This document shows positions 7,862-19,086 of a stretch of DNA of 64,000 bases, one piece after another; positions within the stretch are counted from its first letter, which is position 1, and each line of letters begins with the position of its first letter. The stretch is from assembly GCF_011039075.1 (NCBI RefSeq), contig NZ_JAAKEG010000001.1, positions 124,001 through 188,000 of the forward strand, in the 5' to 3' direction. The DNA is from Adlercreutzia sp. ZJ304. Its GTDB lineage: Bacteria; Actinomycetota; Coriobacteriia; Coriobacteriales; Eggerthellaceae. Both the position numbers and the translations under genes were made by a program. The notes under the pieces are model-generated. The model searched no databases. It was given only the letters and a program-made list of their open reading frames with translations, and was not told the origin of the DNA.

Positions 7862-8020
7862 ATGGTCGGAGGGATTTGGTTCCGCTGGCTCCACGGGCAT
7901 GAAGCATATGAGCGAGTATCTGTTGAGCACACCGAAACGGGAGTGACGGATACATATACCGATGATCATTATCGAATATTTACTCGATTGAATAAGAGCG
8001 GGGTGACGGGGAATGTATGA
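7862..8020 (+). CDS. Unassigned small protein (52 aa), overlapping the SUKH gene
   Basis: A short frame rich in aromatic and polar residues (GGIWFRWLHGHEAYERV, later GVTDTYTDDHYRIFTRL) ends 8 bases inside the next gene. The composition is protein-like and not hydrophobic. Because it directly precedes a SUKH-type immunity protein, it may be the last piece of a secreted toxin gene or a separate small partner. I do not recognise a family. Confidence 0.45.
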   Translation: MVGGIWFRWLHGHEAYERVSVEHTETGVTDTYTDDHYRIFTRLNKSGVTGNV

Positions 8021-8558
8021 ACAGAGCGTGGATTTATTAAAAAGACGAGGAATAGAATTAGAAAGCGGGCTGGCAGCTGATGAAATCGTACAGATAGAAA
8101 AGATCTATGAAATTGTATTCCCGAAGAGTCTGCGGGATTTTTTAATGGCTGCTTTGCCGGTATCGAACGGGTTCTATGATTGGAGGAACGGAGAGCAGAA
8201 GAACATCGAACGTATAAAAGATGCGATAAGCCGACCAATGAGGGATATTCATGATACGCCGGAAGAAGTTTACTGGTGCGAGGACTGGGGCGAAGAGCCG
8301 GCAGACGAAGAAGTTTTCAAAAGGGAAGTGATAGAAAGACTGAAAACGGCGCCGAAGCTAATACCAGTTTATTTTCATAGGTATATGCCGATGGTTTCCG
8401 ATGAGAATCCGCCGATCATGTCTGTGTGTGGTGGGGATATCATATATTACGGAGCGGATATCCAAGATTATTTCGAGGTTGAATTCGATGGAAAAGACCA
8501 GGGTGCCATCGACTTTGAAAGTATTTGTCCGGTACCGTTTTGGACCGATCTCGTATAA
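8013..8558 (+). CDS. SMI1/KNR4 (SUKH) family protein, probable immunity protein
   Basis: The 181-residue protein has the SUKH pattern: an early ...GLAADEIVQIEKIYEIVFPKSL block, the FPKSLRDFL helix, NGFYDWRN, and a late strand with IPVYFHRYMP and SVCGGDIIYYG. SUKH proteins usually neutralise contact-dependent or polymorphic toxins and sit next to the toxin gene. Here only the overlapping 52-residue ORF could be a toxin remnant, so this may be an orphan immunity gene that protects against neighbours. It starts within the preceding ORF. By eye it is AT-richer than the MFS gene before it. Confidence 0.75.
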   Translation: MYEQSVDLLKRRGIELESGLAADEIVQIEKIYEIVFPKSLRDFLMAALPVSNGFYDWRNGEQKNIERIKDAISRPMRDIHDTPEEVYWCEDWGEEPADEEVFKREVIERLKTAPKLIPVYFHRYMPMVSDENPPIMSVCGGDIIYYGADIQDYFEVEFDGKDQGAIDFESICPVPFWTDLV

Positions 8559-8778: not shown

Positions 8779-9234
8779 ATGCAGAAGTGCATTCGTGATG
8801 AAATCGAAAATACTATAAATGAAAAGTCGATCAACAGAGAATCGTTTCGCGAATGCCCCAAAACGAAATATAAAGAAGTTATAAATGGCTTCTATTATGC
8901 ATTTGTTGATTACGATAAATATCCCAATATTGAATTAGATTATTGTTGGTTACATTTCAGAGATAAACTCATTAAGATAGACTGCATTAGTGAAAATATT
9001 GGTTGGGATTGTATGTTGGCGAAGATGAAAGAGTTGCAATCTTACAATCCAAGCAAAAGAATCTATCTGATCCTTTCCCAAGGTTGGGTTTACGAGGGAT
9101 ACATAGATAGCATAATCGGCGTGCTAAGCGAAATAGATGGCTTGTTAGAAGACTTTTACATCACCACCCCACAGTTTGATAAGTTAGCGGCGTACTGCAA
9201 CGATGGTGAGTGTGTAACTCTCTATAGAAAATAA
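8779..9234 (+). CDS. Hypothetical protein (151 aa), possible immunity-type
   Basis: A free-standing soluble protein preceded by GAGGGAGG. It is Lys-, Asp- and Tyr-rich with no signal peptide or membrane segment. The central strand-like block KRIYLILSQGWVYEGYIDSI and the acidic character resemble the style of small immunity proteins, but I cannot name a family. It is clearly AT-richer than the core genes and lies between the SUKH gene and the tRNA-Val island boundary, which suggests acquired DNA. The 220 bases upstream hold only a possible hairpin (GATGACAT/ATGTCATC). Confidence 0.6.
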   Translation: MQKCIRDEIENTINEKSINRESFRECPKTKYKEVINGFYYAFVDYDKYPNIELDYCWLHFRDKLIKIDCISENIGWDCMLAKMKELQSYNPSKRIYLILSQGWVYEGYIDSIIGVLSEIDGLLEDFYITTPQFDKLAAYCNDGECVTLYRK

Positions 9235-9333: not shown

Positions 9334-9382
9334 TTTCTGGTGGTCGCTACAGGATTTGAACCTGTGACCCCCGCCGTGTGAA
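9334..9382 (-). repeat. tRNA-Val 3' half copy, far attachment site of the island
   Basis: These 49 bases are identical to 19008-19056, the 3' half of the intact tRNA-Val including CCA. The rest of the tRNA is missing here. This is the usual footprint of site-specific integration into a tRNA gene: the displaced 3' end marks the distal junction. Confidence 0.85.
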
Positions 9383-9652: not shown

Positions 9653-10100
9653 CTATAAATCAGAGGACATCAATATCTTTTCTGTTTCTGTCATGTCCTT
9701 TTCGATCAACGGGCACATGCTGTCTTTATACTTCAATAGATTCGCCTCATGCAAACAGGATAGTATTCTTGGAATGTACTGCGGTTTCACCAAGCCTATC
9801 TGCGCAAGAGTCTTAACACATTGCCTAGCTGCGATCGGTTTTTCGTCCGTTATATGTGCGAGGAAGTCAGACAGAATCGAAGCGGTTCTCGTCGTCCCAC
9901 TGGGCGGTTGCCGCGAGTATATGCATCGCGCGATTTCTCACCAACGATTTTGTATGGTCAAGCAACGAGGCAAAGTCATCAAAATGCTCATACCACTCGT
10001 CTGTTTCTAGGCTATCGGATATGATTCTATCGGTAAAAGCGTAAGCATATTCATCATTCTTTGTTGTTAGCTTCGCAATGATATCTTCTTTCATCGCCAT
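9653..10100 (-). pseudogene. Frameshifted HEAT-repeat protein
   Basis: From the ATG at 10100 the minus strand reads 74 or so codons (KEDIIAKLTTKNDEYAYAF..., FASLLDHTKSLVRNRAMHIL). Near 9870-9885 the frame is lost. In a neighbouring frame the protein resumes (ILSDFLAHITDEKPIAARQC, VKTLAQIGLVKPQYIPRIL) and ends at TAG 9653-9655. The two parts together give one helical-repeat protein of about 148 residues with HEAT-like A/B helices. One missing or extra base explains the break. The role is unknown; such proteins act as scaffolds. Confidence 0.7.
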
Positions 10101-10253: not shown

Positions 10254-10275
10254 CTGGGTAGCATCAACCACCCAG
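10254..10275 (-). terminator. Terminator of the defence operon
   Basis: On the minus strand CTGGGT and ACCCAG pair across a short loop and are followed by TCTTTTGTTAC. It lies 18 bases past the stop codon of the last operon gene (10293). The rest of 10101-10292 holds no gene I can support. Confidence 0.5.
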
Positions 10276-10292
10276 AAATCACACCGGCACAA

Positions 10293-10976
10293 TTATCGTC
10301 TTGAATCACTGTTAGTTTGAGTCGCATCGCAGTCTGCCTTGCTTTGCTTCCACCACTTTCTCGGTACCATTTGCTCGTAGCCCTTTTCTAGCACCTCGAC
10401 AAACCTATCAACCTCTCTAGCTTCATCGTGGTTCGGGAAGTACTTCCTTGTTATGCCGAACTGCGTTTCTGCTTCTTCGATAAAAGCCATGCATTTATCT
10501 ATCGCTTCTTGCACTACAGAACACGATGCGTACGCATATCTGACCCCATCAGCAAGCAAATCAAGTTGTAGATGAGCAAGATGCTGGTTCCGGACGTCTT
10601 TGAATGCAGCATCGATGCAAGCTTTCGCTTCTTCGAGCTTCGAATCATACGAAGCCGGATCCCCAGCCTCCGAACTATAGCCATCAAAGCGCCTGAGAGT
10701 AAAGGTTTCATTACCACAAATGCTCTGCTTGTCTATTAGTCTAGCCAGTCTTATCGTGATTTCGTCCAGAAGCGAATCCTGCATCGTTACCATAAGAACC
10801 TTCGCTACCCTGTTAAACATAGCGACACGCTCTTCACTATAACCAAACAAAGCCCTGTGATAGTTATTAAGCGTCTCTATAACGAATAGCTCGTCTAAAA
10901 GGCAAGCCACAAGAATACCTATATCTCTTCCGTCTCCATTCCTGCGTTCGCTCTCTTTGAACAGGCTCGATTGCAT
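10293..10976 (-). CDS. HEPN / AbiU2-like protein, fourth gene of the defence operon
   Basis: The 227-residue all-helical protein has the R-x(4-6)-H signature of HEPN RNases in DVRNQHLAHLQLD (about residues 128-140), after a helix LLDEITIRLARLIDKQ. This matches the AbiU2-like HEPN group, whose relatives act as abortive-infection RNases or regulators. It starts 7 bases after the res stop codon, so it is almost certainly in the same transcript. I infer a suicide or sensing arm that acts when restriction fails. Whether the nuclease residues are functional, or whether it is only structural, cannot be settled here. Confidence 0.65.
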   Translation of the reverse strand: MQSSLFKESERRNGDGRDIGILVACLLDELFVIETLNNYHRALFGYSEERVAMFNRVAKVLMVTMQDSLLDEITIRLARLIDKQSICGNETFTLRRFDGYSSEAGDPASYDSKLEEAKACIDAAFKDVRNQHLAHLQLDLLADGVRYAYASCSVVQEAIDKCMAFIEEAETQFGITRKYFPNHDEAREVDRFVEVLEKGYEQMVPRKWWKQSKADCDATQTNSDSRR

Positions 10977-10983
10977 ATCCGGT

Positions 10984-13632
10984 CTACTCCTTATCGCCCT
11001 CTAACGATGCCACCCAATACTCAAGTCGTTCCTGCACGTCATCGGCAAACAGGTCGTTTTCCATAGCAAAATTACCAGGAATAACACGATACACATACCT
11101 ACTACCCGCAGCTGTCTCTTCGGCCGCCCTAGCCTTTGCCTTAACCACTGGATCATCCAGTTTATTCTCGCCCTTGACTTCGATGATCTCCACTGTCCCA
11201 TCTTCTCTAACAGCAAGAAAATCAGGGTAGTAGCTGCGCAAGCTCATAGACTCAGGGTCGTAATAGTTCACCATCAAATCACCCTGGCCGCTCGTAAACA
11301 TACCCGTGAAGTACACCTTGTCTATGTCCTCGGCAAAGATATACTGCATGAATACCTCTTGTTCTGGCTTGGAGTCAAAGCAGTAGGTATCGGCATGGAA
11401 GCTCTTGTCGGCGACCTCAATGAACTGAGCATCATCCATTTCCTTGACCAGGCTAGGGTTAGCAGAGAACTCATAGTATTCCGCGTTCTTGGGCTTCCTT
11501 AACAAGGTTATCTCACGCGGCTCTTCAACCGTCTCTCCCCGCACCTCATACAAAGCGTCGAACACCTTGGGGATAATCACGTCGTACAAAATATCCTCAT
11601 TGAAGTTTACAAGCTCAAGCACCTTATCTGCGCCATCAACGCTTCCGCGCAGCATCTTTTCAATCTTCACGCAAGAAGTCTCAGCCCCGATATAGCTTGC
11701 AATCTTAGGCACCAACGAAAACAGGCTATACTCGTAGTCATCCACCTTGCCAGAAATCTCATAGGTCTTAGCAGCAATGTCGCGGTCAATGCGCTTCTTC
11801 TCGGTCACAGTGGCGCGATACTTCTCCAGGTCAAGCTCATCCAAGCCGAAATCTAAAGGCGCATCCAAAGCCTTTTCAACAACTGCGTAATTATGCCTCA
11901 GCCTGCTCAGCGGAATCCTCACCTCTGGCAAAACGACACGCACCCTATATGTCTTCTTCTCCTTGGCAGTCGAGGGTTTCATCTCGCTTATCTCCATATT
12001 GAAGTTCTTCCTAAGCTCGTTGTCTAAAATCTCCTCATTTTCCTTGGAGAGAAACACCGTAGCCTCTTGCTGCACATCGGTAATCTGGCGCAAGCATCGC
12101 ATAGTCGCCTGAAGCACGAACACCTTTGACTTGGGGGACCTATACATAGCCACCCCAAAAAGCGACCTGCAGTTCCACCCCTCGCGTCCTTTCTGCACGA
12201 GGATGATAAACTGCTTGTCATTGCCGCCAACGTTGGGATTGTCCAGGTTGTTAAAGGCGTGTATCTCCTCGTTTGTGGCGTGCTCGGTATTCACCAGAAT
12301 CTTATTTGTATCAATACCAAGCTCAGCCAGCACCCTCTCAACAGCTGGTCGCACTTCCTCCTCTGCTTCCTCGATGCGCGATGCAAATATAGCAAGCTTG
12401 GGCAGAAGCCCTTCGTACTTGTTTTCGCCGTAGGTGTTCCAAAACTCGGTGATCGCAAAACGCAAAAACGCCTCGCTCTTCACGTTGTCATACCCAAGCA
12501 CCCGCGCAGTCTTCAGATATCCGTGCTGGATAGACTCACGAAGCCCGTAGGCATACACCACCTCCGGCAACACCTTGTTATTGGCATAAGGCGTGCCCGT
12601 GTAATTGAAGCAGCCCACAACAGCCGTGCCCTGTCGCCTCAGCTCCTCATCAAGCAGGTTAATAGTGCGCCGCAGCGAGCTCTCACTCTTTTTATCCGTG
12701 AGTGACTTGACCAGTTCCTTGCCAAACAGGTGATGCGCCTCATCCACATACACGCCCAGCTGCCTAAGCCTCGTCAGCTTCGTGTATCGTTGATTGAATA
12801 TAAGCCCCTTATCATCCCTGGCAAAATCTTCCCCATACACAGCAGCAAGCATCTCAGACGCCCGCTCAGACATCGCAGAAGGCATATCAAAAAGCCTATC
12901 CGTCGCTGTGTTCTCCTTGTGCCTCTGCTTGGCAATGATCTTCTGGTCGTTTGAAATAATCAAATTGAAGTCGGAATCATCAAGCGTGTTAAGTGTCGTT
13001 CCGGCATCCTCCAAAAAATGAACTTTCAGATTGCTATCTACTACAGAAACGTACTCTGGCGGCAACACCAAAGCCTTATCCATGCTCACTATCTCTTTGA
13101 GCGATTGCAGCACAGTTTTATCGGGCGCGAACACAAGCGCGTTATGGCAGAACCGCTCGTCCTTAGGAAACTTGTTCGCCAGTAAAAACTCGTAATAGAT
13201 GCATGTCGCCATAAGAACGGTTTTACCAAGCCCCATGGTAAGCGCGTAGATGTAATTCGGATAAGGTTCGTCAGCTTTCTCCAGCTGCTTGAAAACTTCC
13301 TCTGTCTGCTTTTCGGAATAGATATCGAACAATCTTCCGCTCGCACGAAAGGCATCTTTCGAGTCGACAAACTTGCCCGTCTTGTTGCGCCACTCGTCAA
13401 ACGCCTCGCGCACGCTCATGTTGCCCAAATACTCTTTGAAGAAGACATATATTTCGAATGCCTCGAACTGAGGTGGCCGCAAGTACGCATCAGCTCTCGT
13501 CTTACGGTCGTTATAGGCAAGCAGCTTCTTGGTTATGCCCTTATATCCTTTTTGAATCCTGCCTTTGTTGGTCTGGTAATACCAGATAAGCTGCTGATAA
13601 AAGGCAAGGTCTGTATCGTATTTGGTGGCCAT
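10984..13632 (-). CDS. Type III-like restriction subunit (Res): SF2 helicase plus PD-(D/E)XK nuclease
   Basis: The 882-residue protein has SF2 helicase motifs in order: Walker A MGLGKT (about residue 134), DEAH box VDEAHHLFG (about 297), motif III NYTGTPYA, and motif VI LQATMRCLRQ. The C-terminus carries a PD-(D/E)XK core, YPDFLAVREDGTVEIIEVKG (about residues 795-815). This is the layout of type III Res, which translocates or slides on DNA and cuts when Mod is bound at unmethylated sites. It lies 3 bases after mod and 7 before the HEPN gene. Confidence 0.88.
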   Translation of the reverse strand: MATKYDTDLAFYQQLIWYYQTNKGRIQKGYKGITKKLLAYNDRKTRADAYLRPPQFEAFEIYVFFKEYLGNMSVREAFDEWRNKTGKFVDSKDAFRASGRLFDIYSEKQTEEVFKQLEKADEPYPNYIYALTMGLGKTVLMATCIYYEFLLANKFPKDERFCHNALVFAPDKTVLQSLKEIVSMDKALVLPPEYVSVVDSNLKVHFLEDAGTTLNTLDDSDFNLIISNDQKIIAKQRHKENTATDRLFDMPSAMSERASEMLAAVYGEDFARDDKGLIFNQRYTKLTRLRQLGVYVDEAHHLFGKELVKSLTDKKSESSLRRTINLLDEELRRQGTAVVGCFNYTGTPYANNKVLPEVVYAYGLRESIQHGYLKTARVLGYDNVKSEAFLRFAITEFWNTYGENKYEGLLPKLAIFASRIEEAEEEVRPAVERVLAELGIDTNKILVNTEHATNEEIHAFNNLDNPNVGGNDKQFIILVQKGREGWNCRSLFGVAMYRSPKSKVFVLQATMRCLRQITDVQQEATVFLSKENEEILDNELRKNFNMEISEMKPSTAKEKKTYRVRVVLPEVRIPLSRLRHNYAVVEKALDAPLDFGLDELDLEKYRATVTEKKRIDRDIAAKTYEISGKVDDYEYSLFSLVPKIASYIGAETSCVKIEKMLRGSVDGADKVLELVNFNEDILYDVIIPKVFDALYEVRGETVEEPREITLLRKPKNAEYYEFSANPSLVKEMDDAQFIEVADKSFHADTYCFDSKPEQEVFMQYIFAEDIDKVYFTGMFTSGQGDLMVNYYDPESMSLRSYYPDFLAVREDGTVEIIEVKGENKLDDPVVKAKARAAEETAAGSRYVYRVIPGNFAMENDLFADDVQERLEYWVASLEGDKE

Positions 13633-13635
13633 ACC

Positions 13636-15372
13636 TTACGCCTCCACCAATACTTCCAAAGACTCGCTCAAAAGGTCGGTTATCTTCACTTTTATGGTGC
13701 CAGCATCCTCAGGTACGGCGTACCTGCCGCTTACAAGCTCGTTCTTTTCGGGAATATCTTGCACGGCGGGCTCAAGCACCGCGCCGTCATAGTTCCAATC
13801 AATGAGCACGGAATCTACCAGCTCGCACCAATCGCTCACAGTCTCGCGCTCCATGCTGAGCTTCTGCATCAGGTTCAGTGGGTAGAAGCTATTTATAACA
13901 AGTTCACCATCAACCACCTCAACATCTGCTTCAGCCTCGTGCTTGAACTGCAAGTCCTGCTTGTCGCGCAGTATGTCGCATATCTCAACATCTAACTTGA
14001 ACTCCGCCAACTCGCCTTCAAGCGATGCTTTCAGGTCTGGCTCATGCCCCATGCAAACAAGCGTAATCTTCTCAACAGGCTTGTTCGGATTCTCTGCCTT
14101 GCGCTCTTCAAATGTTCTGATAGGCAGATGTGATACAAAATCTCCCAGATCAGCTTTGGTGGCAATTCTATTGGTGGGCAGAATCTTCACCATACGTCCG
14201 TCAAGCTCACCGTCATATACATTGCCCTCATCCAGTTTCTGAATGTCTAACGCCTGAATGATGAGTTCTTTGGCCTCAACGGGATTACGGAAGAAGTCGT
14301 AATTGTTGACGTTGTAGACCTCAAAACCCGTGTAATAAGTCGTGCCGTCGGGAAGCTCTCCATTGAGTTCGTCGGCAACAGCCAAGAGCCGCTTCGTGGT
14401 CGTTTGGATGGCACCCATGTTAATGTCTGCGCCAAGGAAACGCCGTCCGTTTTGCATGGCAACCATTAAAGCAACTCCGCTACCCATAAAAGCGTCAAAA
14501 ACAATATCACCCGGATCGGTGGAGCCAAGAATTATTCTCTCCAACAATTTGTAGGGTTTTTCTGTAGGGTAACCAACACGTTTTATTCCGTCGTTTGGAT
14601 AACGTCCCGCAATGGCAAATTCCCACCAATCCTCAGGTATCTTTCCATCTGCAAGCTCGTATGTACTGGCCATAAAACCCGAACCCTTTAATCCTGCTTT
14701 GAAGTTGCCCGTAGTCTTTTCATTGTGTGCAACCCTTATATTATCGGCGTTAAACTTCCATGTCCCGCTTTTGCAATACCAGTAAATCGTATCGTGCTTC
14801 CTGTTGTATTGGCGCATTCCAGGCGACCCTGGACCGAAATAGCACCAGGCAATTTCGTTAATGAAGTTTGATGTGCCGAACACCTCATCCATGATCATTC
14901 TTAGTTGGTGATTTTTATGCCAATCACAATGCAAGAAAATCGAGCCATTATCAGCAAGCAATTCGCGCAATAAGATAAGCCTCTCATACATAAACTGGAG
15001 GTATTCGTCACTAGACCAGATGTCTCCATATTGCTTTTCTTCAAAAGACGAACTATCACCTTCGATATTATTACCTCGGAGTTTTATGGTCTTCTTGTAG
15101 TCAGCCTTAGAATCAAAGGGTGGGTCAATATAAATCAAGTCAACCTTGCCGCGAAACTCCTTCAGCAAGTGGCTCATAACCTGAAGATTGTCACCCCAGA
15201 AAAGCTTGTTCATCCAGCCATCCACAGGTTCGCCGTAGCTCTCTTTACGCTGCGCAGGGTAATACTGCGTGGACGTATACGGGTGCTTGCCCGTCCACCT
15301 AAGCTCGGGAAATCCCTTGATGACGGGTCGCTTGTCGAACTCGAAAAGCTCTCCCTGCATAGCCTCTGCCAT
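13636..15372 (-). CDS. Type III-like site-specific DNA methyltransferase (Mod)
   Basis: In the 578-residue protein the catalytic motif IV DLIYIDPPFDSKADY (about residue 77) comes before the AdoMet-binding motif I region FDAFMGSGVALM (about residue 293). That is the beta-class order found in type III Mod N6-adenine methyltransferases. The segment between them would hold target recognition, and a long C-terminal extension (about residues 330-578) follows. Mod both protects host DNA and supplies specificity to Res. It starts 12 bases after the UvrD/Cas4 gene and ends 3 bases before res. The recognition sequence cannot be deduced. Confidence 0.9.
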   Translation of the reverse strand: MAEAMQGELFEFDKRPVIKGFPELRWTGKHPYTSTQYYPAQRKESYGEPVDGWMNKLFWGDNLQVMSHLLKEFRGKVDLIYIDPPFDSKADYKKTIKLRGNNIEGDSSSFEEKQYGDIWSSDEYLQFMYERLILLRELLADNGSIFLHCDWHKNHQLRMIMDEVFGTSNFINEIAWCYFGPGSPGMRQYNRKHDTIYWYCKSGTWKFNADNIRVAHNEKTTGNFKAGLKGSGFMASTYELADGKIPEDWWEFAIAGRYPNDGIKRVGYPTEKPYKLLERIILGSTDPGDIVFDAFMGSGVALMVAMQNGRRFLGADINMGAIQTTTKRLLAVADELNGELPDGTTYYTGFEVYNVNNYDFFRNPVEAKELIIQALDIQKLDEGNVYDGELDGRMVKILPTNRIATKADLGDFVSHLPIRTFEERKAENPNKPVEKITLVCMGHEPDLKASLEGELAEFKLDVEICDILRDKQDLQFKHEAEADVEVVDGELVINSFYPLNLMQKLSMERETVSDWCELVDSVLIDWNYDGAVLEPAVQDIPEKNELVSGRYAVPEDAGTIKVKITDLLSESLEVLVEA

Positions 15373-15384
15373 CTTTCAACCTTC

Positions 15385-18234
15385 CTATCTAGAACAGTAG
15401 TGCCTGAAGTCACAGTTCTTACACAACTTGTAGTCTTTCGCCTTTGTCGAGTAGTCCTTGGCTAGTGCTTTGTGTGCCACCTCGTCAAATGTTTCCACTG
15501 TTCTCGCAATGGAAACCTCGTCCTTAGGGTAGCTCACCGTGGGCACGCCGTTTTCTTCGCCCGTGAAGTACACGTGCAGCTTGCTCACCTTGTAGTCGGT
15601 CTTTTCCTCAATTAGGTGCGCATACATCTGCAACTGTTCTCGGTATCGCTTCAGCTTGTCAGCACCCTTATACATGTCAGGCTTGCGTTCCGCCTTGAAA
15701 TCCACAAGCTCCACGGTATCGCCCTCGCCGCGCACAAGATCTATCTTGCCCACTATTATGTAGTCGGGCTTCACCAGGCTCACAGGCACTTCCGCCTCGC
15801 GTATAAAATCCCACCTTCCACGCTGGTTTTCCATATACCGTGCCACCTGCTTCCTGGCAGCCTCCTTCTGAGGCTCTGCCAGATAAGCATGCTCACTCTT
15901 AGAAAGCGTCTCGTAGTTGGCGTTAAACCAAGCATCCATGTTCTCGGGCGTGATGGTGTCCGCCTCGCCGCGCAGTGCCGCCTTATGCATATCCTCTATG
16001 GTCTGATGCACCACCGACCCGAAGAGCGTATACGCGTTGCTGCCGTAAGTAAACTCCAACTCGTTATGGAACTTGTACTGCAACGAGCACCCCTCATACA
16101 CGGCAATATGCGAAGTAAACGAGAGCATGGCTTTGAGGTTCTGTTCTTTGATCGCACTTACCTGAAGCTCCCGTGAAGCAGTCAGCGCATGCGGCTCGCA
16201 CGCTGGCAACTCCTCAAATGCCGCCTCGAAGCACTTCGTAGGTTTTGCGGCGGTCGTCACTACCAACACGTCCTGAGCACGAGAAAACGCCGTGTAATAG
16301 AGCCGCCAAAAGTCGAAGTACTTGATGTCTTCTGTTGGCTCAAATTCGGCTCGCTTGCCGTAAACGTCTATTATTCCCTGAATAAACTCGGCTTGTGAGT
16401 TCTTTCGCGGTGTCGCATTGGTGGTGTCAACCACCACAACAGGAAACTCCATCCCCTTTGACTGATGAATGGTCATAAACGACACGCATCCGCTAGGCAC
16501 GTACTCAGTCTCGTCCTCAAACTCACCGATACCTCCGCGCCACATGAACTTGAGGTACATGTCAAACAACCTGTCCAGCTCCTTCTCCAAATACTTAGGA
16601 GAAAGAAAGCTCACATGGTGCAGATACTCGTACCGCGCAAAAACACTGGTAAGAAGAGACAAGTTATGCAAGGGCCTCAGGTCATAAACGCCAGCACGAG
16701 TATCGGTGTCCAAAATCGTCCTAAATGGCTCAAACGCAAACAACTCGTAAATCAAATCAAGAAACCCGTGGTCTGCGTTCTCAGATAAGGTGTGATGTTC
16801 CTTCCCTCGTCGGCTCACATAGGCTCTCAGCTCGCGCGCCTCATCCGTAGCGATGTAGCTGTTTGCAGCCTCTATGCAACCATCCAAGTAACTCAGATAC
16901 TGCTCGTCAATGTACTCGAATTTCCTATCAACCACTTTCACCAACAGCCCAGGGAATAAAAACAGCATAAGCCCCAAAGCCAACTTGATTTCCTCGCGGT
17001 CAAAAAACTCGTTCGACCGCGGCGAGTACACGTTAATGCCTGCAGTAGCGAAATCCTCAGCAAGCCCACGCACGCGATCGCTCTTTACAGACTTAAACAG
17101 AAACGCCACCTGATTGTAGTCCTCAATCTTTCCGCTTTCCTTTAGCTCGCGGACTAAATTTATGAGATGTTCGCTCCAATCCGAATCCTCTCCGCCAATC
17201 ACGCTCACAATACTCGCATCGCTCACTTTAGAACGCACGGCTCTCAGGTGTTTCTCGTGCCTAAATCCAGCCCAATCGAACTTGAACTTTCTACCTTCGG
17301 TCTTTGTCATCCAGTGATCGTAGAACCCAACTATCTCTGGCCGCGACCTATAGTTCACATCCAGATGCACCACTTCGCAGTTCTTGAACTGGCTCGGAAA
17401 CTGAATGATATTCCTGATAGTCGCACCTCGAAAGCGATACAGACCTTGGTCGTCGTCGCCAACGACGCAGAGATTCTCGTTATCCGCCGATAACATAAGC
17501 GCAAACTGTTCTTGGATGTAGTTCGTGTCCTGATACTCATCCACCATAACGTAGCTGATGCGGTTGCGCACCTCGCTCAAAAGCCCTGGATTGTCCTGCA
17601 GCATTCGGTAGCATTCATACTGAATCTTCGCAAAATCCAGCCAGTTGTTATCTTCCAGAAGCTCGTTATACAGACTTACAGCCTCAGCGATAGCTTTGAT
17701 ACTGTCGTCATCGTCTTCAAGGAGAGCATTCGCATCAATAAGTTCTTCGGATAAGTTGTTGGCCCATTTTGGGATTTCCGCTGATTGGTCCCAAACACCT
17801 CTACTGGCAGGCAGTGCTTCAAAGTGAGGTAACTGACGAAACCTCCAAAAGTTCCTAAAAACGAGGTACTGTTGATCGAAGTCATCGATAATACGATAGT
17901 TCTTCTTCAACGTGGAATACTCTATATTCTCGCTGATAATCCGCATACAGACCGAATGAAACGTGCCTATATACATATCTTCTGGGTTTATCTGTATGTC
18001 AAGTTCGGTAAGCTTGTTTGATATGCGGGTTATAAGCTCTTTGGCAGCCTTTTCCGTAAAGGTAACCACCATGATCTGCTTCGGGTCAACATGCTTCTCG
18101 GTGATAAGGTAAACAACACGTGTAACCAAAGTATAAGTCTTGCCAGTACCTGGTCCAGCGATTATAAGCAGTGGACCATCAGTGGTGGTTATGGCTTTGA
18201 TTTGGCTATTATTGGCATTTCCGAAGTCGAACAT
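15385..18234 (-). CDS. UvrD/PcrA-type SF1 helicase fused to a Cas4-like [4Fe-4S] nuclease domain
   Basis: The 949-residue protein has Walker A AGPGTGKT (residues 26-33), motif II VDEYQDT and further SF1A motifs (GDDDQGLYRFRG, MTIHQSKGMEFPVV). Its last 230 residues form a RecB/Cas4-type PD-(D/E)XK domain: an early cysteine in YEGCSLQYKF, catalytic GKIDLV...ELVDFKA, and terminal CKNCDFRHYC, which together make a four-cysteine iron-sulfur set as in AddB and Cas4. An in-frame TAG directly before the ATG fixes the start. It heads the operon, which is unusual for a plain type III system, so I infer that it processes or unwinds invading DNA with Mod and Res. Confidence 0.85.
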   Translation of the reverse strand: MFDFGNANNSQIKAITTTDGPLLIIAGPGTGKTYTLVTRVVYLITEKHVDPKQIMVVTFTEKAAKELITRISNKLTELDIQINPEDMYIGTFHSVCMRIISENIEYSTLKKNYRIIDDFDQQYLVFRNFWRFRQLPHFEALPASRGVWDQSAEIPKWANNLSEELIDANALLEDDDDSIKAIAEAVSLYNELLEDNNWLDFAKIQYECYRMLQDNPGLLSEVRNRISYVMVDEYQDTNYIQEQFALMLSADNENLCVVGDDDQGLYRFRGATIRNIIQFPSQFKNCEVVHLDVNYRSRPEIVGFYDHWMTKTEGRKFKFDWAGFRHEKHLRAVRSKVSDASIVSVIGGEDSDWSEHLINLVRELKESGKIEDYNQVAFLFKSVKSDRVRGLAEDFATAGINVYSPRSNEFFDREEIKLALGLMLFLFPGLLVKVVDRKFEYIDEQYLSYLDGCIEAANSYIATDEARELRAYVSRRGKEHHTLSENADHGFLDLIYELFAFEPFRTILDTDTRAGVYDLRPLHNLSLLTSVFARYEYLHHVSFLSPKYLEKELDRLFDMYLKFMWRGGIGEFEDETEYVPSGCVSFMTIHQSKGMEFPVVVVDTTNATPRKNSQAEFIQGIIDVYGKRAEFEPTEDIKYFDFWRLYYTAFSRAQDVLVVTTAAKPTKCFEAAFEELPACEPHALTASRELQVSAIKEQNLKAMLSFTSHIAVYEGCSLQYKFHNELEFTYGSNAYTLFGSVVHQTIEDMHKAALRGEADTITPENMDAWFNANYETLSKSEHAYLAEPQKEAARKQVARYMENQRGRWDFIREAEVPVSLVKPDYIIVGKIDLVRGEGDTVELVDFKAERKPDMYKGADKLKRYREQLQMYAHLIEEKTDYKVSKLHVYFTGEENGVPTVSYPKDEVSIARTVETFDEVAHKALAKDYSTKAKDYKLCKNCDFRHYCSR

Positions 18235-18560: not shown

Positions 18561-18885
18561 CAACACCCCGGACGCTAGATTACGATTCAACTCATCCGCA
18601 TACTAGTTCAAAAAAGTTAGAAAAATGGTCAAAACTTCCAGCTTTCCATGGTCATAGCGCCACATAGCTAACTTGAATTGTGGATGACACTGGGCAAACA
18701 GGGTTCTCCAATTCTATTTTGATTCGTAATTGGCGTAATTTGGCATTATAGACTGTGGAAAGTCGGAAGTTTTGACCATTTTTCGCCTAAAAAGTGACGG
18801 AGGCAACACACGGTCTGGTTTGGTCAGAGTTCCACAACAGCACTCCTTGCCCCTTTGCGATGGACTGAGCCTTACACACTTTTCT
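18561..18885 (+). repeat. Partial IS1249/IS256-like element, copy A
   Basis: About 325 bases match the reverse complement of 40363-40690 with roughly 18 differences. It contains an internal imperfect 29-bp inverted repeat (18620-18648 and 18756-18784), and its right end, ACACACTTTTCTGCC, resembles the IS end at 40.36 kb. One frame ends in a transposase-tail-like block (GLVWSEFHNSTP) but has several stops. It is a decayed mobile-element fragment with no coding function. Confidence 0.75.
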
Positions 18886-18970
18886 GCCTCCCCCTGCTTT
18901 GCTTTTGCAAGCTTCCGCACAGTGAGCATTAACTCTCATTAACCCAAATCTTACCAGCTGCAAGTGGCAA

Positions 18971-19000: not shown

Positions 19001-19011
19001 CTGCTAATTTC

Positions 19012-19086
19012 TGGTGGTCGCTACAGGATTTGAACCTGTGACCCCCGCCGTGTGAAGGCGATGCTCTCCCGCTGAGCCAAGCGACC
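19012..19086 (-). tRNA. tRNA-Val (anticodon CAC)
   Basis: The minus strand folds as a 75-base cloverleaf: acceptor GGTCGCT/AGCGACC, D-arm GGCTCAGCGGGAGAGC, anticodon stem TCGCC/GGCGG with loop TTCACAC (anticodon CAC, reading GUG Val), and T-arm with GGTTCAAATCC. Discriminator A and CCA are encoded. Its 3' half is duplicated at 9334-9382, marking it as the integration site of the neighbouring island. Confidence 0.95.

Follow-up and report, generated by a model that had tools for sequence, protein, structure and literature searches.

The closest described counterpart of the locus analyzed here is the gene neighbourhood reported by Hudaiberdiev et al. in 2017 (PMC5704561), who found UvrD-Cas4 fusions most commonly beside type III Mod and Res genes and predicted that the association serves defence. 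Extra genes in that neighbourhood encode WYL, HTH and Schlafen-like proteins, and the paper makes no mention of HEPN. Genes of the AbiU2 family were reported within restriction-modification (R-M) operons in 2013 (Anantharaman et al., PMC3710099), and in a model discussed in the same paper the HEPN protein PrrC, encoded beside EcoPrrI, is released when restriction is inhibited. We found no experimental study of a UvrD-Mod-Res system in the open-licence papers searched.

The present locus lies in a 64-kb stretch of the genome of Adlercreutzia sp. ZJ304, hereafter the window. ORF calling recovers the four minus-strand genes described in an earlier note on this DNA, in the order uvrD, mod, res and HEPN, with the same intergenic gaps of 12, 3 and 7 bases (Table 1). 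The catalytic motifs of all four are intact in the translations. A terminator-like hairpin follows the last gene; hairpins of this kind arise in shuffled sequence as well. The first three genes are those of the 2017 neighbourhood, with the same kind of fusion, since UvrD-helicase (PF00580) and PDDEXK_1 (PF12705) domains occur in one protein and the Mod and Res genes adjoin. The three-gene core has therefore been known since that study (PMC5704561), and the new part is the HEPN cargo. The composite defence operon envisaged in the earlier note survives in the form of a predicted restriction core plus a HEPN/AbiU2 gene. That the core is a restriction system is very probable. We also lean towards the view that the whole is best explained as a mobile R-M system with an added suicide effector; most likely the operon would destroy unmethylated DNA, with the HEPN protein as a suicidal back-up.

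Table 1. Features of the window and of related loci, with variable genes placed relative to the core
Locus	Position	Strand	Feature	Remarks
Window	9334..9382		left copy of 49-bp direct repeat, partial tRNA-Val, island boundary	exact repeat
Window	10254..10275	-	terminator-like hairpin, directly 3' of HEPN gene	consensus match only
Window	10293..10976	-	HEPN/AbiU2 cargo gene	227 aa; Rx5H motif RNQHLAH, residues 129-135
Window	10984..13632	-	res: SF2 motor + C-terminal TnsA-like PD-(D/E)XK nuclease	882 aa
Window	13636..15372	-	mod: beta-class N6/N4 DNA methyltransferase	578 aa; target-recognition region ~residues 176-262
Window	15385..18234	-	uvrD-cas4-like: SF1 helicase + C-terminal PD-(D/E)XK nuclease + four-Cys (Fe-S type) cluster	949 aa
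Window	19008..19056		right copy of 49-bp direct repeat, inside intact tRNA-Val gene	exact repeat
Window	19012..19086	-	tRNA-Val (cac), presumed integration site	
L014			Zorya II ZorA, ZorB, ZorE	after Res
L055			Hachiman HamA + helicase	after Res
L061			TrlF	after Res
L100			AAA_13 ATPase, matches PADLOC candidate PDC-S06	after Res
L042			Mrr-like nuclease	after Res
L073			metallophosphatase-STAND protein	after Res
L041			RES-domain protein	after Res, at 82 bases
L060	1244-12679		complete Menshen set NsnA, NsnB, NsnC	nested between uvrD and mod
L091			OLD-like ATPase	between UvrD and Mod
L035			BRO-N protein	between UvrD and Mod
L025	7246-8112		~250-290 aa family member	between uvrD and mod
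L026	7165-8037		~250-290 aa family member	between uvrD and mod
L028	6584-7315		~250-290 aa family member	between uvrD and mod
L048	7221-8006		~250-290 aa family member	between uvrD and mod
L127	9318-10094		~250-290 aa family member	between uvrD and mod

How widespread is this arrangement? We collected 108 loci with relatives of Res: 10 from plasmids, 80 from species-representative genomes (the best 80 of 227 confirmed relatives), 17 from IMG/VR and one from phage records. The order UvrD-Mod-Res recurs in at least nine phyla in the Res tree (Bacillota, Actinomycetota, Bacteroidota, Pseudomonadota, Spirochaetota, Thermodesulfobacteriota, Chloroflexota, Verrucomicrobiota and Poribacteria), and also on plasmids and in phage. 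Since dozens of loci keep the three genes in this order, the arrangement is not due to chance. A few of the viral loci (L132, L145 and L147) end at contig edges or have an incomplete UvrD or Res. The carriage by plasmids and phage, together with the interleaving of phyla in the Res tree, point to frequent transfer of the core, in a tree where bins may contain misassigned contigs and the window forms a long branch. Two bins assigned to different phyla (L073 and L075) hold near-identical loci with the system, which suggests that the system was transferred recently or that a contig was binned wrongly. In two Priestia megaterium plasmids (L129 6962-16097 and L130 7001-16097) a related UvrD is paired with a methyltransferase and a DEAD/DEAH protein that are both larger, which may represent a sister variant. 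PADLOC 2.0 does not call the core as one system, its matches being a methylase of type III character, a weak REase and a generic UvrD, and its scan of the window gave no named defence system.

Additional genes are found in two slots, after Res and between UvrD and Mod, in a survey by simple ORF calling, which may have overlooked genes that are small or have a misassigned start. An ORF of at least 120 aa starts within 60 bases of Res in 19 of the 76 loci that have at least 1 kb left, some of these ORFs looking like unrelated neighbours, such as the Mn-catalase of L047. The second slot is occupied by a family of ~250-290 aa proteins at ten genome loci and in phage NatCom_11578, and the members scanned have no match in Pfam, NCBIfam or PADLOC. 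In the same phage a gene pair resembling the anti-phage IteS and IteA, below curated cut-offs, adjoins UvrD-Mod-Res (L127 2472-5911). The HEPN gene of the window is one example of such variable cargo. A bolder proposal, which we consider doubtful, is that the core acts as a defence chassis with two slots for unrelated suicide or defence modules, where the intact complex would restrain the cargo until blocked by a phage; AbiU2-HEPN would then be a new example of such cargo.

The HEPN protein matches HEPN_AbiU2 (PF18734) with an E-value of 4.1e-9 and 36.6 bits against a cut-off of 26.8, and its catalytic Rx4-6H motif is intact; it is likely to be an abortive RNase. A single-sequence AlphaFold model had a pLDDT of 40 and was unusable. 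The earlier note had proposed a composite defence system of four genes, and here the comparison leads elsewhere: no relative of the HEPN gene was found beside any of the 108 related loci, and the form comprising core plus HEPN is known from a single locus. The HEPN gene is thus cargo attached to a three-gene core rather than a defining component. Its sequence, searched against plasmids, viral contigs and the phylum (396 genomes), returned only itself, and the PF18734 profile had no match in 50 carrier genomes or records; applied to 296 genomes of the phylum, the profile found the window gene and five others. One of these five (L124) lies after genes for an N6/N4 methyltransferase and an HNH nuclease, which agrees with the AbiU2 genes listed for R-M operons in 2013 (PMC3710099). 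The window gene is like those in its score above the Pfam cut-off, its Rx5H motif and its R-M context, and differs in being attached to a UvrD-Mod-Res core and in having no sequence relatives within the searched set. There is likewise a resemblance to PrrC and EcoPrrI, in that a gene of an RNase family of HEPN type adjoins a restriction system, but PrrC has an ABC ATPase and accompanies a type I system, while the window protein is a small stand-alone HEPN.

Is the HEPN protein coupled to the core as a fail-safe? We put this at slightly under an even chance, and nearly as much weight must be given to the possibility that it is an independent abortive-infection gene that uses the operon promoter and has no molecular link to the core. 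The absence of the gene beside all of the relatives is what independence predicts, and the Menshen, Zorya II and Hachiman genes found in the same slots are complete systems of their own. The base composition is also distinctive, with a GC3 of 0.47 for the HEPN gene compared with 0.55-0.62 for the core genes, and at the level of sequence no antitoxin or partner domain ties the protein to the core. Against this, the short gap after res, with an AAGGAG ribosome-binding site 10 nt before the ATG, and the L124 AbiU2 gene, which directly follows an R-M pair, fit coupling, while not proving it.

The Mod protein bears out the type III character previously ascribed to it. It matches N6_N4_Mtase (PF01555) at 3.7e-49, and the DPPF motif precedes FMGSG, so that it is a beta-class enzyme with its own target-recognition region (TRD), as in type III systems. 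The best PDB match of the Mod profile is EcoP15I Mod (4zcf_A, 3.2e-31). Among relatives the TRD averages 0.26 identity compared with 0.66 in the remainder of Mod, and ranges in length from 78 to 156 residues. The TRD of the window shares 76% identity with the TRDs of L025 and L047, while Res is only ~55% identical to its nearest relatives; the region is swapped between lineages. This is how a restriction-type specificity behaves, and the core resembles a sequence-specific restriction system in its behaviour. Mod genes are present as tandem pairs in L045 and in L093.

Res is less typical. Its Pfam matches lie just below the cut-offs (ResIII 21.3 bits for a cut-off of 22.5, and TnsA_N 25.9 for 26.5), the PADLOC REase_III match is weak, and a Res profile found no sequence match in the PDB, EcoP15I chains included. 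Thus the type III likeness proposed for Mod and Res together stands for Mod, and Res is not typical of type III by sequence. Residues of the motor, and E757, D804, E818 and K820 of the nuclease, are invariant in the aligned relatives. A structure model built from 57 sequences, with a pLDDT of 84, matches RadD, EcoP15I Res and LlaBIII, indicating an SF2 motor fold that is compatible with a type III enzyme and not specific to one. Assignment of Res to type III by fold was rejected, the SF2 motor fold being common to many families. The operon therefore shares with EcoP15I the tandem mod-res genes, a Mod whose profile is closest and a Res model with EcoP15I among its matching SF2 motors, but differs in the extra helicase-nuclease gene, in the TnsA-like nuclease of Res and in the lack of a sequence match of Res to the EcoP15I chains. 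A type III R-M system comprises two genes, mod and res, and here uvrD is kept and co-evolves with them. The operon appears to be only partly of type III.

The UvrD protein has matches to PF00580 (5.7e-73) and PF12705 (4.9e-21), and a Cas4 match (TIGR00372 in NCBIfam) below cut-off. The closest structures to its helicase part are those of PcrA/UvrD. The PD-(D/E)XK residues are invariant among aligned relatives, as are the cysteines C716 and C938-x2-C941-x5-C947 in ten aligned sequences, a pattern that we take to resemble AddB and Cas4. Like AddAB, AdnAB and RecB the protein combines an SF1 helicase with a RecB-family nuclease, but it is a single polypeptide bound to an R-M operon. Among the 75 loci where 2.9 kb or more of sequence precedes Mod, 73 have UvrD on the same strand. 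Of the two exceptions L096 retains only a UvrD remnant and L099 has no UvrD, and in the latter a transposase-like ORF overlaps the start of mod. In 68 complete three-gene sets, the Spearman coefficient between pairwise distances is 0.91 for UvrD and Res, 0.80 for Mod without the TRD and Res, and 0.03 for the TRD and Res; these rank correlations use non-independent pairs, with the TRD serving as an internal contrast. The three core genes have co-evolved. It had been suggested that homologues of mod-res without the flanking genes would speak against the proposed system: relatives without HEPN are indeed found, but without UvrD almost never (2/75). Since it is retained in nearly all loci and its distances track those of Res, UvrD is evidently an integral partner of the core rather than an accessory; the earlier note had likewise treated the helicase-nuclease as a real part of the operon.

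The same data weigh on the proposal of an ordinary type III enzyme with two subunits, to which UvrD-Cas4 would be only an ancillary repair enzyme limiting self-damage. Hudaiberdiev et al. discuss an ancillary role and a partial redundancy with RecB (PMC5704561), the nearest matches of Mod are type III Mods, and relatives of UvrD are also found without a Mod-Res pair of this kind. However, the retention of uvrD, a correlation of UvrD with Res that is tighter than that of Mod, and a Res that is atypical in sequence for type III make this unlikely.

The operon lies within an island of ~9.7 kb, a setting missed in the earlier note, the edges of which are an exact 49-bp duplication of the end of tRNA-Val. 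The 44-base core of the repeat occurs nowhere else in the genome, and no integrase was recognized among the ORFs between the repeats. The tRNA-Val gene is the presumed site of integration. In the sister genome G403 it is present once and unduplicated, beside topA, which in the window genome is on another contig; the genes adjoining tRNA-Val differ between the genomes, which leaves the proof of an empty site incomplete. Within the island a small minus-strand ORF (window 9653-10100) resembles the beginning of a disrupted gene that could plausibly continue in a different frame. Between tRNA-Val and uvrD there is an imperfect inverted repeat with 34-nt arms that are 88% complementary (window 18620-18653 and 18751-18784). 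A dispersed repeat of ~90 bp (window 18801-18889) has roughly 22 further copies in the genome, and was not seen in G403 in the same search. Just outside the island are genes for a SUKH-like protein (window 8013-8558, match below cut-off) and a DUF6756 protein (window 8779-9234); genes of these types are encountered in toxin systems, where they confer immunity.

Location between tRNA-Val repeats, and the occurrence of relatives on plasmids and phage where addiction pays, would suit a HEPN protein that is chiefly an addiction device, held off by the core and freed upon loss of the island, so that the island is kept. But R-M systems can be addictive alone, no antitoxin gene is seen at the operon, and the present data fit addiction and defence alike; we regard this as quite improbable.

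The hallmarks of DISARM are a DUF1998 helicase, DrmB and a PLD nuclease, and none of these is matched in Pfam, NCBIfam or the listed PADLOC matches. In Hma, HmaB is an m5C methyltransferase (PMC8565338) and HmaC a DUF499-type ATPase (PMC12839542), while the Mod of the window is a PF01555 N6/N4 methylase and Pfam gives no DUF499 match. Both leads of the earlier note thus fail for want of the defining genes. A system of the BREX, Hma or DISARM type, blocking phage chiefly by means other than cleavage, would share the multi-gene make-up of methylase and helicase, and cleavage by members of the family is predicted only, but with two complete PD-(D/E)XK sites invariant in the family, and no PglZ, DUF1998, PLD or DUF499 domain among the PADLOC, Pfam and NCBIfam matches, it is highly improbable.

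Returning to the favoured reading of a mobile R-M system with an added suicide effector, the operon would have arrived in this genome on the island at tRNA-Val. Mod would place a methyl mark, most likely on the N6 of adenine, at a specific sequence and thereby spare host DNA. On meeting unmodified sites, the SF2 motor of a Mod-Res complex would move and the TnsA-like nuclease would cut. The UvrD-Cas4-like enzyme would then load onto the ends, unwinding and degrading the DNA in the manner of AddAB or AdnAB, but dedicated to the system. HEPN/AbiU2 would be co-expressed with the core and held inactive; should a phage block or overwhelm the core it would cut RNA and growth would stop, as may be compared with PrrC beside EcoPrrI. 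The steps from methylation to degradation, including the base and site methylated and the order of cutting and degradation, are drawn by analogy from the protein families, and we infer both the RNase activity of the HEPN protein and its coupling to the core.

Our analysis shows that a widespread core goes unrecognized as a single system by PADLOC 2.0, and the co-evolution of its genes places the helicase-nuclease within the machine. The variable extra genes provide a natural series, in which one restriction core is combined with different possible fail-safe effectors. This offers a way to ask if restriction complexes guard and release toxins in the manner of PrrC.
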